From Chitinophagales bacterium (GTDB lineage Bacteria; Bacteroidota; Bacteroidia; Chitinophagales; Chitinophagaceae), in the NCBI GenBank assembly GCA_026936105.1, contig JAIXKI010000002.1:201556-265555 (forward strand): a stretch of DNA of 64,000 bases. The letters run 5' to 3'. Below are positions 19,750-23,544 of this stretch, piece after piece; within the stretch, counting starts at the first letter, position 1; each line of letters opens with the position of its first letter. The notes below the pieces were generated by a model. That model was not told the origin of the DNA and did no database searches. It was given only the letters and a program-made list of their open reading frames with translations. The position numbers were made by a program, and so were the translations under genes.

Positions 19750-21198
19750 TCATTTCAATTCTGAATTACGAAAAGACCCCAGCCACAGCAGCCATTCTTT
19801 TGCTCCTGTTGCAAACAAAGCTACTAAAGAGATGGCTGCCACGCCCAATAACTGCAACAAAGGTTCAACAGACATCTTACTGCACCAATAAAGGAATCCG
19901 GATAACAGAGCTGCAGTAAAAATATAGGCAAAGATGGAGCGGAAATGAATGGAAGCCATTGATTTTTTCCATGCATAGAACATGGATAATACTCCGCAGA
20001 AGAACTGGCTGATCAATGCCGCATAACAACAACCCAGCGCACCCAATGAAGGGATCAGCATCAGGTTAAGAACAACATTGATCACCACTGCATTCAGGGT
20101 GATATAGCAAAAGGGAACAATATTGCCTGTTGCCGTCAGCACGGTGCCATAAACATGGACCAAAGAATATCCGATCAATGCCGGAAGGCACCAACGCATC
20201 ACCTCAATAGCTTCAATAGAATCATAATGATAAAGTGTTTTCTGGATCCACGGAGCAATGAAGAATGCCGTTACGCCAACCGCAATTGAAAACAAGATCA
20301 GGAAATGCCTTGCGCCTAAAACCACATTGCTGTAATTCTCTTTATCACTCCAATGCCTTGCCACATAGGGTAATAAAAACATAGCAACCAATGCTCCTAT
20401 CATATTTGCCGCATCCAGCAGCCGGTAAGCCGAAGCATAGATTCCTGCCTCATGATCGCCGTTGACATGAATGCGTTCCAGTAAAAAACCATCCAAACGA
20501 TAATGGATGCTCATCAGTAATATAATGATCCCGAACGGTAGCGCCTGATAAAATATTTGTTTCTGGATGAATACCCTTTTATAAAAAATGAATTGAATTC
20601 CTTTGTTGATCAGAATAAACCAGGATACAAGTGAAGCAAACAAAGTGCAAAAGACCTGTATTTGTAAAAAACGGCCTATAGTGATGTCACCAAATACAGA
20701 AGGAAAATAAAGCAGGCTTCCGCATAACAGGGTCATCAGGGTTTTATCCAGTACTGAGAGCCATGCATCGGTCCGGAACCATTGATGAGCAGTTATTATT
20801 CCCCGGAAAAAGAGAAATAAGGATTGTAACACCTGAATGAATACCACGCTGAAAAGAATGTCCCATCTGCTGATGCCGACCAGCCAGCCGGCGGAAAAGA
20901 CAACAACGATATAGGATAAGGTGAAAATGAACTTTATATAGAGATAATTTCCCGCCCGGTCAATAAAATCTTTCTCTTTTGCTGCCAACTGACGGTTGTA
21001 AAAATTTGTATAACCCCAGTCCAGCAAAAAACTTAAAACAACAGAAAAATTAAAAAGAGAGAAATAAGCCCCATACTCAGCCACACCAACCGTATTCTGG
21101 ACTGCCCGGTCAATGCCGAAGATCCAGACCGGTTTGATCACGGCATTAAGGACGATCAGTAATCCCAGTGATGAGAAAAAGCGGGAGGATCCTTTCAT
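19750..21198 (-). CDS. polysaccharide flippase (Wzx/MATE-like)
   Basis: 482-residue polytopic protein with 12-14 predicted helices of the MOP exporter superfamily. Charged residues in the first helix loops (TNFYNRQLAAKEKDF) and the SIHYRLDGFLLERI segment in helix 7 are typical of Wzx-type flippases, which move undecaprenyl-linked oligosaccharides across the inner membrane. It lies between the Lrp regulator (10 bp upstream) and Wzz, and is likely co-transcribed with both. Confidence 0.9.
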   Translation of the reverse strand: MKGSSRFFSSLGLLIVLNAVIKPVWIFGIDRAVQNTVGVAEYGAYFSLFNFSVVLSFLLDWGYTNFYNRQLAAKEKDFIDRAGNYLYIKFIFTLSYIVVVFSAGWLVGISRWDILFSVVFIQVLQSLFLFFRGIITAHQWFRTDAWLSVLDKTLMTLLCGSLLYFPSVFGDITIGRFLQIQVFCTLFASLVSWFILINKGIQFIFYKRVFIQKQIFYQALPFGIIILLMSIHYRLDGFLLERIHVNGDHEAGIYASAYRLLDAANMIGALVAMFLLPYVARHWSDKENYSNVVLGARHFLILFSIAVGVTAFFIAPWIQKTLYHYDSIEAIEVMRWCLPALIGYSLVHVYGTVLTATGNIVPFCYITLNAVVINVVLNLMLIPSLGALGCCYAALISQFFCGVLSMFYAWKKSMASIHFRSIFAYIFTAALLSGFLYWCSKMSVEPLLQLLGVAAISLVALFATGAKEWLLWLGSFRNSELK

Positions 21199-21208
21199 TT
21201 CCGGCCCT

Positions 21209-21673
21209 TTAGATCACTTTTACGTTCCGGTTAAAACTTTCTTCCAGTGAAATAAGTGTCTCGGTTCTTTCGATGCCTTTTATTTTCTGAAGCTGATCGT
21301 GAAGCACTGAGCGCAATTGCAGGATATCACTGCATACCACTTCGGCAAACATGCTGTAATTTCCGGTAGTATAACTAAGCCTGACAATCTCAGGAACCTT
21401 TTGCAATTCTTTGGCCACCGTATCATACATAGAACTTTTTTCCAGGTAAATGCCAATGAACGCTACAACATCATAACCCAGCTTTTTCAGATCTACATTG
21501 AGTTTTATACCTTTAACGACACCTGCTTCCTGTAGTTTTTTGATACGTACATGAATGGTGCCGCCGGAAACAAACAGTTTTTTTCCAAGATCAGCGTAAG
21601 AAATCTGTGCATCTTCCATCATGTGTTGAATGATCTGAAGATCCAATTTGTCAAGATTCAATTTAGTCGCCAT
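21209..21673 (-). CDS. Lrp/AsnC family transcriptional regulator
   Basis: 154-residue regulator with an N-terminal winged helix-turn-helix (DLQIIQHMMEDAQISYADLGKKLFVSGGTIHVRIKKLQEAGVV, about residues 11-53) and a C-terminal RAM/ligand-binding domain (about 70-140). Such proteins assemble as octamers, bind amino acids and activate or repress nearby genes. It precedes the polysaccharide operon by 10 bp, which would place its own level under the same promoter. AT-rich upstream DNA with repeated AAATATTTG suits autoregulation. Confidence 0.95.
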   Translation of the reverse strand: MATKLNLDKLDLQIIQHMMEDAQISYADLGKKLFVSGGTIHVRIKKLQEAGVVKGIKLNVDLKKLGYDVVAFIGIYLEKSSMYDTVAKELQKVPEIVRLSYTTGNYSMFAEVVCSDILQLRSVLHDQLQKIKGIERTETLISLEESFNRNVKVI

Positions 21674-21711
21674 TTTATCATCTGATTTTTGAAGAATTTT
21701 ATTAAGTACTT

Positions 21712-21760
21712 AAATATTTGAATAATTTCTATAATTACAAAATTTTTATTGAAATATTTG
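21712..21760. promoter_or_regulatory. candidate Lrp operator region (paired AAATATTTG)
   Basis: AAATATTTG occurs at 21712-21720 and 21752-21760, 40 bp apart (about four helical turns), in very AT-rich DNA between the regulator gene and the structured RNA gene. Lrp/AsnC proteins typically bind phased AT-rich sites upstream of their own gene. Confidence 0.25.
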
Positions 21761-21789
21761 GAAGAAAATGAGCCATTCATTTAAATTTG
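21757..21789 (+). promoter_or_regulatory. putative promoter of the tRNA-like RNA
   Basis: The TAAATTTG at 21782-21789 matches TAnnTTTG and a TTTG at 21757-21760 is a -33 candidate (spacer 21 bp, longer than the usual 17-19). Transcription would start near 21796, leaving a leader of about 45 nt to be removed if the RNA is processed like a tRNA. Confidence 0.35.
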
Positions 21790-21840
21790 TTCTACAAATC
21801 TGATCAAACATCAGAAAAGTTCTTTAAGATAATTCAAAAT

Positions 21841-22016
21841 TGTGGGGTGATGAAACCTTTCGGCAGACATGCCCTCTTGTCTCGGGGGTGGGGATCACAG
21901 GATAAACAAAAAGTAGAGCCGGCTTTTCGACTTTGTCGGGAGGCCGACCGGGGTTGACCACCGGACTTTGCTTTTCAGCTAACTGCCCCGTGGAGGTTCG
22001 AATCCTCCCCCTACAG
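21841..22016 (+). ncRNA. structured RNA with tRNA-like ends and a ~100-nt insert in the variable-arm position
   Basis: The two ends fold like a tRNA. The acceptor strands TGTGGGG (21841-21847) and CCCTACA (22009-22015) form 7 pairs with one G-U. TG is followed by a 3-bp D stem ATG/CAT with a Leu-tRNA-like loop (CGGCAGA). A 5-bp anticodon stem CCCTC/GGGGG encloses loop TTGTCTC (anticodon position GTC), and the T arm is GGAGG-TTCGAAT-CCTCC (21992-22008). CCA is not encoded. Between 21889 and 21991, where a variable arm belongs, lie 103 nt with their own pairing: TGGGG with CCCCG, AAAGT/CCGG with CCGG/ACTTT, and a GTCGG-GAGG-CCGAC hairpin. I do not recognise the class. Position 37 is a pyrimidine, unusual for a decoding tRNA. 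Confidence 0.6.
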
Positions 22017-22039
22017 CGAACTGAGTTTTTTCATTGCAG

Positions 22040-22069
22040 AGCCTTCGTGAACAGTGCGAAGGCTTTTTT
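22040..22069 (+). terminator. intrinsic terminator of the tRNA-like RNA
   Basis: The stem AGCCTTCG/CGAAGGCT (8 bp, 9-nt loop TGAACAGTG) ends in a run of six T, 24 nt after the RNA's 3' end. Nothing else on the plus strand upstream needs it, which supports the RNA being transcribed. Confidence 0.85.
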
Positions 22070-22186
22070 CTTTTCAATACATACCTGCGACAAACACTAC
22101 GATCTTCTTCCTATCCCTTCATAAATGCTTTCTTTACAAACTCATGTTCTCTGATCGCTAAGAAATCAGATTTTCCTCCCTGAACA

Positions 22187-22215
22187 CTTGTCAAAAATCC
22201 GATAAGGTATCTTTG
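22187..22215 (+). promoter_or_regulatory. promoter of trmB, probably giving a leaderless mRNA
   Basis: CTTG (22187-22190), a 17-bp spacer and TATCTTTG (22208-22215) fit the Bacteroidota -33/-7 consensus. Start sites normally fall 6-7 nt after the -7 box, which is at or next to the ATG at 22222. This also argues against the in-frame TTG at 22213, which lies inside the -7 box. Confidence 0.5.
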
Positions 22216-22221
22216 CGCTGC

Positions 22222-22935
22222 ATGGGTCAAAAAAAATTACAAAGATTTGCGGAACTGAAAACTTTCCCCAATGTGTTGCAATTTCCCGAAAACATGAAGG
22301 GTAAGTGGAATGAATTTTTCAAAAATAAAAACCCGATCATTTTAGAATTGGCATGCGGTAAGGGCGAATATGCCTTAGGTCTTGGAACCTTGTTCCCGCA
22401 AAAGAATTTTATTGGAGTTGATTTGAAAGGAAATCGCATCTGGGTTGGCGCCAAAAAAGCCCTGCAAAACAATCTGGGTAATATAGCTTTTTTAAGAACC
22501 GAAATTGACAAGATCGCAGAATACTTCTCTAAAGATGAAGTGTCAGAGATCTGGATCACTTTTCCTGACCCTCAATTAAGGACTTCAAAAGCAAAAAAAA
22601 GGCTGACCCACCCTAAATTCCTGCGTTTGTATCAGCAATTTATTATTCCCGGGGGAATTATCCATCTGAAAACCGACAGTCCTGATCTTTACCGGTTCAC
22701 CAGGCTGGTGATCGGAACTTATCATTGTATTTTATATCAAGACCAGGAAGATGTTTATCAAATGGAGAATATTCCTGAAGAATTGCAAATAAAGACCCAT
22801 TATGAATCATTGAATATCTCACAGAGCAACAGGGTGCATTATCTCAGTTTTTCTTTGCCGGACCGTCTGCCGGGAAAAGAAAAAGATGAAGAATTAAAAA
22901 GAAGACTCTCAGGCGAGAGCACAACTGATGTTTAA
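22222..22935 (+). CDS. trmB: tRNA (guanine-N7-)-methyltransferase TrmB
   Basis: 237-residue SAM-dependent enzyme that methylates G46 of tRNA. The Rossmann motif I is LELACGKGEYALGL and the family motifs ISEIWITFPDPQ and KKRLTHPKFLRLY are present. The ATG at 22222 (MGQKKLQRFAELK) is chosen over an in-frame TTG three codons upstream because that codon sits in the promoter box. It directly follows the tRNA-like RNA gene, an interesting but possibly accidental pairing. The next gene overlaps its 3' end by 8 bp. Confidence 0.96.
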   Translation: MGQKKLQRFAELKTFPNVLQFPENMKGKWNEFFKNKNPIILELACGKGEYALGLGTLFPQKNFIGVDLKGNRIWVGAKKALQNNLGNIAFLRTEIDKIAEYFSKDEVSEIWITFPDPQLRTSKAKKRLTHPKFLRLYQQFIIPGGIIHLKTDSPDLYRFTRLVIGTYHCILYQDQEDVYQMENIPEELQIKTHYESLNISQSNRVHYLSFSLPDRLPGKEKDEELKRRLSGESTTDV

Positions 22936-23143
22936 AAAACAGATTATGAAAAAAGAAGAGCTGATCAAAGGAGTGCACTACTATTTTAATGAAGAAGGTT
23001 TAATGGTCTTTACCAGGCAATATCATTTGAAAAAAGGTTATTGTTGCGGTATGGGCTGCCTGCATTGTCCTTACGGATACGAGGCAGTGTCTGAGCCCAA
23101 AAAGTCGGCACTACTCAATCAAAGAGAGAAGAATAAAAAATAA
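22928..23143 (+). CDS. small cysteine-rich protein, DUF5522-like
   Basis: 71-residue protein with the compact motif YCCGMGCLHCPYGY (four cysteines and a histidine), which looks like a metal-binding knuckle. I recognise this as the small Bacteroidota family usually labelled DUF5522. The ATG at 22928 overlaps the end of trmB; MKKEEL at 22946 is an alternative start. It is probably in one operon with trmB and the alkyltransferase-like gene. Function unknown. Confidence 0.85.
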   Translation: MFKKQIMKKEELIKGVHYYFNEEGLMVFTRQYHLKKGYCCGMGCLHCPYGYEAVSEPKKSALLNQREKNKK

Positions 23144-23151
23144 TTTTAAAT

Positions 23152-23544
23152 ATGCCTGTACGCAAAAGATCGAATGCCCAATTGAAAGCTGTAGTTCCAT
23201 CAGGGAAAAGTGATGAAAGCTTTTTTGAACTGGTATATGATGTTACCCGGCAAATCCCGAGAGGCAGAGTGACTTCTTACGGAGCCATTGCTGCATGCCT
23301 GGGAACCAAAATGTCTGCAAGAATGGTGGGCTGGGCGCTGAATGGCTGTAGCAGAATACGGCCCAAAGTTCCGGCACATCGTGTTGTGAACCGTACCGGT
23401 TTACTCACCGGTAAACACCATTTCACTCCCCCGGGGCAAATGAAAAAACTGCTCAACAAAGAGGGTATCAAAGTAAAGGATGACCAGGTCGTGAATTTTG
23501 AAAAACTATTCTGGGATCCCACAAAAGAACTGGGATTAGAATAA
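23152..23544 (+). CDS. alkyltransferase-like (MGMT-fold) DNA-binding protein
   Basis: 130-residue protein with the MGMT C-terminal fold: the wHTH PRGRVTSYGAIAACLG, the arginine-finger region MSARMVGWALNGC and the active-site segment. The usual PCHR is PAHR here, so the alkyl-acceptor cysteine is replaced by alanine. Such proteins (ATLs) cannot remove O6-alkyl groups but bind O6-alkylguanine and flag it for nucleotide excision repair. It lies 8 bp after the DUF5522-like gene. The N-terminal extension is short and basic. Confidence 0.92.
   Translation: MPVRKRSNAQLKAVVPSGKSDESFFELVYDVTRQIPRGRVTSYGAIAACLGTKMSARMVGWALNGCSRIRPKVPAHRVVNRTGLLTGKHHFTPPGQMKKLLNKEGIKVKDDQVVNFEKLFWDPTKELGLE

Follow-up and report, generated by a model that had tools for sequence, protein, structure and literature searches.

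The locus

The window, by which we mean the whole stretch of 64,000 nucleotides analysed here, carries at 21841-22016 an RNA of 176 nt that reads from the sequence as a complete tRNA body, and upstream of it a divergent gene for an AsnC-type regulator (Table 1). The first-pass annotation had described a tRNA-like fold at this place, with a 7-bp acceptor stem, a Leu-like D loop, an anticodon arm of 5 bp with a 7-nt loop and a T arm, and each of these elements is confirmed, as is the spacing of 103 nt between the anticodon and T arms. The cloverleaf has GG in the D loop and a TTCRA-type T loop. Its anticodon loop contains GUC at 21879-21881, U33, a pyrimidine at 37 and C38 at 21883, and its 3' end, like those of the host tRNA genes, is a discriminator followed by C. 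The insert has helices of its own, as had been proposed, including a covarying long-range helix (V3 in Table 1); the AAAGT/ACTTT register originally drawn for it did not hold, and the GTCGG hairpin of the same proposal sits in a freely varying stretch. A DUF5522 protein is encoded at 22928-23143, between trmB and an O6-methylguanine-DNA-methyltransferase-like gene.

Table 1. Features of the RNA locus, in positions of the window
Feature	Position	Strand	Basis
AsnC-type regulator gene, 154 aa, divergent from the RNA	21209-21673	-	Pfam AsnC_trans_reg and HTH_AsnC-type
TAnnTTTG promoter box	21782-21789	+	sequence
AGTTCTTT, boxA-like leader motif	21818-21825	+	sequence; motif count
Whole tRNA-like RNA, nt -1 to C74	21840-22017	+	covariance-model match, 116.5 bits, E 1.4e-28 (the window sequence is itself among the 36 used to build the model)
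Acceptor stem, 5' side, U1 G2 U3 ...	21841-21847	+	7 bp with 22009-22015
Anticodon arm	21872-21888	+	5-bp stem, 7-nt loop TTGTCTC at 21877-21883
Variable-arm base, 5' side, helices V1 (21890-21893) and V2 (21898-21900)	21890-21900	+	98-100% paired; 5 pairs changed on both sides
Conserved internal loop GAUAAA, opposite CUAA (21979-21982)	21901-21906	+	alignments
Helix V3, 5' side, partner 21971-21978	21907-21913	+	92.1% paired; 7/7 pairs changed on both sides, 29 sequences
Conserved hairpin with GGRUNGACCAC core	21949-21963	+	90.4% paired
Variable arm, 3' side: V3, CUAA, V2, V1	21971-21989	+	alignments, covariation
T arm GGAGG-TTCGAAT-CCTCC	21992-22008	+	100% paired in 36 sequences
Acceptor stem, 3' side, discriminator G73 (22016) and C74 (22017)	22009-22017	+	G73 in 276/276 distinct copies
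Intrinsic-terminator-like hairpin and T run	22040-22069	+	AGCCTTCG/CGAAGGCT, then T run

The promoter box and the terminator-like hairpin are found as previously claimed. Among 202 distinct upstream stretches of the family, a TAnnTTTG box occurs in 103 (shuffled mean 10) and G[TC]TCTT or GTACTT in 66 (shuffled mean 8). We liken this leader motif to boxA; a 16S gene, sought for comparison of the leaders, was not found in the host assembly. Downstream, a T5 run lies within 70 nt in 155 of 202 copies, as a raw count.

A structured RNA family

Rfam 15 gives no match at E<=1 within 20501-23500, ARAGORN finds no tRNA in the window, and the 40 RF00005 matches in the host genome do not include this RNA. 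A tmRNA was rejected from the lack of an Rfam match at the locus and the presence of the host tmRNA elsewhere (G000:C36). We could not find this conserved structured RNA family in Rfam 15 or, as judged from titles and the openings of abstracts, in the literature searched.

BLASTN with the element detects homologues in 55 of 99 genomes of its own and related species. These are 44 of the 60 genomes from the same family, counting its own, and 11 of the 39 from elsewhere in the order; some genomes carry two or three nearby copies. In an alignment of 36 sequences with shortened arms, 96.1% of pair cells are paired over 32 pairs, compared with 49-58% in slid controls, and 16 pairs are changed on both sides, compared with 3-7. 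The covariation score is 0.345, against 0.09-0.13 for slid registers and 0.17 for shuffles. Compensatory changes occur in all helices of this alignment except the anticodon stem. In the hairpin with the GGRUNGACCAC core, which is common to bacterial and viral copies, two of four pairs change on both sides and two are invariant; the outermost is open in 11 of 28. The folding energy of the single sequence is modestly low (z -1.93; 6 of 200 shuffles are equally good). The tRNA body and the long arm are under structural selection, and a chance fold or pseudogene is ruled out by the covariation together with the breadth of distribution.

A covariance model (R1) matches 377 of 395 genomes of the phylum at E<=0.001. 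Most of these matches are about 85 nt long and score at most 62 bits, and are taken from their length and from partial reading as canonical class II tRNAs. Matches of at least 64 bits occur in 40 genomes, to which a short member in G165 (58 bits, 78 nt, loop AUC) was added by eye. A scan of named genomes with an anticodon-loop pattern yields at least 101 copies of at least 78 bits confirmed by R1, in 79 of 80 loci searched, the sole exception among the 80 being L171 (Spirilliplanes), where R1 finds no match. Genera carrying the RNA include Chitinophaga, Ferruginibacter, Terrimonas, Pedobacter, Mucilaginibacter, Hymenobacter, Pontibacter, Algoriphagus, Cyclobacterium, Dyadobacter, Spirosoma and Neolewinella, besides an Ignavibacteriales genome and others; members are spread over several orders of Bacteroidota as well as phage contigs.

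Short copies, of 78-130 nt, exist, and these, together with the Leu-like D arm and the class II layout, would speak for a tRNA-Leu pseudogene in decay, or for a tRNA that an inserted element has split. The latter had been considered in the first-pass annotation. On the other hand, long copies and most short ones share a conserved, covarying base of the variable arm, compensatory changes are seen in the insert as well as in the body helices (not the anticodon stem), and a single architecture is kept across several orders and phage contigs, so that the credence left to this explanation is close to nil. Compared with tRNA-Leu, with which it shares the D-arm sequence TGRTGAAA..GGCAGAC and a long variable arm, the RNA has G73 for A73, a GUC loop and an arm that is usually several times longer.

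Two further observations concern tRNA-related sequence. A small extra hairpin-like insert in the D loop (such as GGCGTAAGCC) is present in a few bacterial and viral copies of the family (L026, L036, L275, L310, L314, L347). Outside the window, the host genome has 8.4 perfect copies of an 86-bp unit (L074:667-1390 = G000:C22:54066-54789) that starts with the 3' part of tRNA-Thr(GGT), forming a tandem array of tRNA 3' ends.

Aspartate and asparagine identity elements

The 276 distinct copies compared comprise three sets: 109 copies found without a pattern, and two sets of listed matches found through a loop pattern in which U35, C36 and C38 were prescribed and A37 was disallowed. Two copies were left out, one with its anticodon region broken by a contig end (L048) and one with a broken anticodon region at 25.8 bits (L210:303-415). 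G73, G34, U35, C36 and C38 are strong determinants of aspartate identity, while U1-A72 confers amidation of Asp-tRNA-Asn, which G1-C72 and U20a block in tRNA-Asp, as described in a review (PMC9976931); the U1-A72 rule for recognition of tRNA-Asn by GatCAB is likewise supported by PMC4206432. In our family, G73 is found in 276 of 276 copies and G34 in 259; U35, C36 and C38 are carried by all 276, which is informative for the 109 pattern-free copies alone (109/109). All five aspartate determinants are combined in 259 of 276 copies, the window copy among them, and 258 have U1-A72 in addition. U1-A72 itself replaces the G1-C72 conserved in bacterial tRNA-Asp in 275 of 276 copies, while G2-C71 is kept (275/276). 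The D loop reads GGCAG in 255 of 263 copies with a readable motif, placing A at 20a by our own numbering. The antideterminants of GatCAB, G1-C72 and U20a, are not the rule in this family.

The host tRNAs do not offer such a combination. Among the 39 read (of 40), U1-A72 occurs only in tRNA-Asn and two tRNA-Gln, G73 is limited to tRNAs for Ser, Asn and Asp, and none (0/39) has the five aspartate determinants together with U1-A72. The host tRNA-Asp shares GUC, C38 and G73 with the RNA but begins with G1, and a normal tRNA-Asn is encoded too, whose GUU anticodon is absent from the window RNA with its GUC. The coexistence of the aspartate set and U1-A72 in one molecule joins AspRS identity to GatCAB identity; in a tRNA that takes part in decoding, this would be hazardous.

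Residue 33 is U in ordinary tRNAs. In the family it is U in 218 of 276 copies, including that of the window, and C, G or A in the other 58. Residue 37 is U in 250, C in 19 and G in 7 of the 276, the pattern having disallowed A37 in two of the three sets; among the 109 pattern-free copies it is U or C in 105 and A in none. These features bear out the earlier doubt, raised from GUC with a pyrimidine at 37 (U or C in 269 of 276), that the RNA decodes normally. An unusual decoding tRNA for Asp codons would account for the GUC anticodon and for the U33 of most copies, but it is highly improbable: U33 is lost in more than fifty copies, residue 37 is mostly a pyrimidine, an amidated form would misread Asp codons, and normal tRNA-Asp is present both in the host and alongside the RNA in three viral arrays (L316, L325, L344).

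G34 is missing in 17 of 276 copies, where A (9), C (5) or U (3) takes its place (L103, L120, L122, L131, L158-L160, L177, L181, L186, L187, L202, L205, L207, L211, L218); such copies come chiefly from Hymenobacter, Pontibacter and their relatives, nine of the 13 named ones belonging to these two genera, and L131 (78 nt) is without the long arm. Loss of G34 should weaken recognition by AspRS. In family f29, the three tested genomes with non-G34 loops lack GlnRS and two have AsnA, suggesting that a task in asparagine supply may be relaxed there. However, G408, whose loop is UUC, has GlnRS and no recognised asparagine synthetase, and does not fit an account in which G34 was lost because the task was unneeded. 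Both the copies without G34 and the replacement of G1-C72 of bacterial tRNA-Asp count against the asparagine reading developed below.

Viral copies

The viral set is the best 79 of 147 matches from a loop-pattern scan of viral contigs. A copy of at least 66 bits is found, among the matches listed, in 79 of the 80 viral loci searched; L319 (49 bits), truncated by its own end, was left out. The full aspartate set with U1-A72 is present in all 67 distinct viral copies listed, U35, C36 and C38 being fixed by the pattern. In 40 viral loci run through ARAGORN, the RNA is either the sole tRNA-like gene of its stretch or lies among tRNAs, and the program detects only three short copies, as tRNA-Asp (L294, L306, L348).

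Directly after the GGRUNGACCAC hairpin, a perfect palindrome of 6-12 nt follows in 40 of 45 distinct viral regions (e.g. L312, L337, L316), a count uncorrected for viral kinship, with a mean longest palindrome of 3.4 nt in shuffles and lone 6-nt palindromes not significant. Its letters differ between copies (GCGCGC, GCATGC, GTGCAC, GCTAGC and others). Palindromes of at least 6 nt are mostly absent from bacterial copies (4/44 and 5/27 in two sets). That the palindrome persists although its letters change suggests that two RNA molecules pair with each other, and the viral copies may dimerise through palindromic loops.

In 32 of 79 viral loci (e.g. L312, L320, L340) the RNA has a terminase-large-subunit-type gene (phrog_6681-type) downstream of it in the same orientation, and in 15 of 79 it follows, at a distance of 0-24 nt, a gene of about 170 aa with no assigned function. 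The idea of a packaging RNA common to the phages was rejected, since the terminase gene belongs to one viral lineage and was not seen near other viral or bacterial copies. When one viral copy and the copy of the window were compared by BLASTN with 50,697 named phage records, neither had a match. A second family of viral tRNA-like genes was also seen: L302:5129-8252 on the minus strand (IMGVR_UViG_3300035670_010555) has seven copies with an identical T arm and 3' acceptor side (ACAGGTTCGAATCCTGTCCTGACTAC), in which the anticodon arm is replaced by stretches of variable length and sequence, and single copies occur in L313, L316 and L361.

The AsnC-type neighbour

Genes within 3.5 kb of 247 loci (168 bacterial, 79 viral) were clustered; the bacterial loci are partly dependent, as a few genomes are present twice and named records may repeat species of other genomes. 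A gene of the Lrp/AsnC family is the leading bacterial neighbour, found at 116 of 168 bacterial and 0 of 79 viral loci, and the next bacterial cluster covers 20 loci. It is upstream and divergent in 116 of 116, with a gap of 87-252 nt (median 152). Of the 52 bacterial loci without it, some end at contig ends. A homologue of at least 154 bits exists in all 41 RNA-positive genomes compared below, unlinked cases included, and one above 150 bits in three of 39 RNA-negative ones. The gene trmB, which had been singled out as a neighbour of the RNA, loses its significance in this comparison, trmB-like genes being near 19 loci.

The best match of the window protein among solved structures is E. coli AsnC (2cg4, 115.6 bits, E 1.9e-32), compared with 42.7 bits (E 6.3e-10) for E. 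coli Lrp (2gqq), so that by sequence comparison it is closest, among solved structures, to AsnC within the Lrp/AsnC family. In E. coli, AsnC is an activator of asnA whose effect is weaker with asparagine; it also represses its own gene and is divergent from its target (PMC8707732). The arrangement here is alike in that an AsnC-type regulator diverges from a candidate for asparagine formation, but the partner is an RNA rather than the AsnA enzyme.

The neighbourhood also bears on another possible role, in which Asp- or Asn-RNA would pass on the amino acid it carries, outside the ribosome, to a peptide, a lipid or a cell-wall precursor. Chargeable non-decoding tRNAs with such tasks are known: the staphylococcal tRNA-Gly of cell-wall synthesis is kept for donation to peptidoglycan and has no giant arm, whereas the window RNA has one and is proposed to carry a biosynthetic reaction. 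The main recurrent bacterial neighbour within 3.5 kb is, however, the AsnC-type gene and not a transferase, and a donor role does not predict the AsnB pattern described in the following section. We consider it decidedly unlikely.

Association with GatB and AsnB

Eighty genomes were searched for related genes: 41 RNA-positive (38 of the same class, three of a second class) and 39 RNA-negative (29 of the same class, ten of others). The RNA-negative genomes, a subset of those available, were picked by hand from the R1 scan before the gene searches, G239 being left out; RNA-negative means no R1 match above about 62 bits under the stricter filters of Infernal, weaker matches having been read in part. 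The presence of GatCAB was judged by GatB over cut-off.

Within the class, GatB is found in 38 of 38 RNA-positive but one of 29 RNA-negative genomes (Fisher 4.9e-18), and an AsnB orthologue (554 aa) in 0 of 38 and 23 of 29, respectively (9.0e-13); AsnA occurs in four of 38 and eight of 29. Including the second class, all 41 RNA-positive genomes have GatB. The association is also seen within families: in f1 and f23 together, GatB is present in 19 of 19 RNA-positive and 0 of 5 RNA-negative genomes (p 2.4e-5). In f23, seven RNA-positive genomes have GatB and no AsnB orthologue, while three RNA-negative genomes show the reverse; in f1, GatB is present in twelve RNA-positive genomes and absent from two RNA-negative ones, and neither group has the AsnB orthologue.

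AsnRS is over cut-off in 41 of 41 RNA-positive genomes and GlnRS in 34. Since both synthetases are present, GatCAB has no evident decoding task in these 34 genomes. Among class members with AsnRS and GlnRS, GatB is found in 34 of 34 RNA-positive and 0 of 28 RNA-negative genomes. The only RNA-negative genome of the class with GatB, G135, lacks GlnRS and would need GatCAB for glutamine. In PMC4206432, Bacteroidetes are noted among the genera that have AsnRS, GlnRS and GatCAB but lack an asparagine synthetase, and synthesis on tRNA-Asn is supposed there.

Several findings weigh against the asparagine reading. Other TIGR01536 proteins are over cut-off in 36 of 41 RNA-positive genomes and might make asparagine there, and AsnA is present in four of 41; in favour of the reading, five RNA-positive genomes have neither. 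GatB is present in all ten RNA-negative genomes from other classes, and G110, G126 and G185 among these also have GlnRS; the association between the RNA and GatB is therefore claimed for the class alone. The co-occurrence is in part due to shared ancestry, and 52 of the 168 bacterial loci have no AsnC-type neighbour.

AspRS was compared by eye in 20 relatives (12 RNA-positive, eight RNA-negative). A His that we take as the mark of non-discriminating enzymes is found in none of them, and in f23 the enzymes of RNA-positive and RNA-negative genomes alike read RDLG, the same as chains 1efw and 6hhv, of which 1efw is the discriminating AspRS of T. thermophilus.

Proposed role in asparagine synthesis

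Three lines of evidence, the identity elements, the AsnC-type neighbour and the gene-content pattern, agree on asparagine. From these comparisons we consider it probable that the RNA is a tRNA set aside for asparagine biosynthesis and taking no part in decoding, charged by AspRS and amidated by GatCAB. The proposal builds on data for the family, its structure, its identity elements, its neighbourhood and its gene-content association, with the promoter read from sequence. The RNA would be transcribed from the TAnnTTTG promoter through the boxA-like leader to the terminator, then processed like a tRNA and provided with CCA. Its aspartate identity set would let AspRS load it with aspartate, and its U1-A72 pair, that of tRNA-Asn, would let GatCAB convert the bound aspartate into asparagine. 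The asparagine would presumably be freed off the ribosome and feed AsnRS. On the ribosome, the amidated RNA would place Asn at Asp codons; it may be kept out by the variability at position 33, the uncommon residue at 37 and the size of the variable arm. The divergent AsnC-type regulator may tune the level of the RNA to asparagine, by analogy with E. coli AsnC and asparagine synthetase A, and a phage-borne RNA might raise the supply of asparagine.

A regulatory tRNA mimic, or a scaffold, had been suggested at the outset. In the first case, an AsnC-controlled RNA would bind AspRS, GatCAB or both, or report their charging state, and tune the use of Asp and Asn without carrying a metabolic intermediate. 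The identity elements and the AsnC-type neighbour fit this too, and the conserved internal loop and GGRUNGACCAC hairpin of the long structured arm resemble binding sites. However, it leaves unexplained why RNA-positive genomes of the class retain GatB and lack the AsnB orthologue, and the 3' end stays chargeable in form, with G73 in every distinct copy. The earlier suggestion keeps some standing, yet we consider it unlikely; the identity elements and gene content favour a substrate of amino-acid synthesis, which the first-pass annotation had not put forward.

The proposed asparagine-forming RNA resembles the known indirect pathway, in which tRNA-Asn, a non-discriminating AspRS and GatCAB act together in the transamidosome, in having U1-A72, G73, G34 and U35, in the presence of GatB and in the proposed conversion of Asp to Asn on an RNA. 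It differs from that pathway in its GUC and C38 of the Asp type instead of GUU, its free residue 33, its class II body with a usually long structured arm, the adjoining AsnC-type gene and the additional presence of AsnRS; moreover, it would need no non-discriminating AspRS. With bacterial tRNA-Asp (GUC) it shares G34, U35, C36, C38, G73 and G2-C71, but it has U1-A72 for G1-C72, A where U20a is expected (GGCAG), a Leu-like D arm, a giant variable arm and mostly a pyrimidine at 37.

A more extended form of this proposal, towards which we lean only slightly, regards the RNA as a cofactor of chimeric identity, which a discriminating AspRS would read as Asp and GatCAB as Asn; it would make free asparagine and replace asparagine synthetase across several orders of Bacteroidota under AsnC feedback. 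Its giant arm may assemble AspRS and GatCAB, and the viral copies, perhaps as dimers joined by their palindromes, would be an auxiliary metabolic RNA of phages.

If the proposal is true, a tRNA would have given rise to an RNA that serves amino-acid production instead of codon reading, a living example of an RNA biosynthetic cofactor. It would explain the retention of GatCAB in Bacteroidota that have both AsnRS and GlnRS, and predictions of asparagine auxotrophy would change for large environmental clades. A metabolic RNA would also join the host functions borne by phages.
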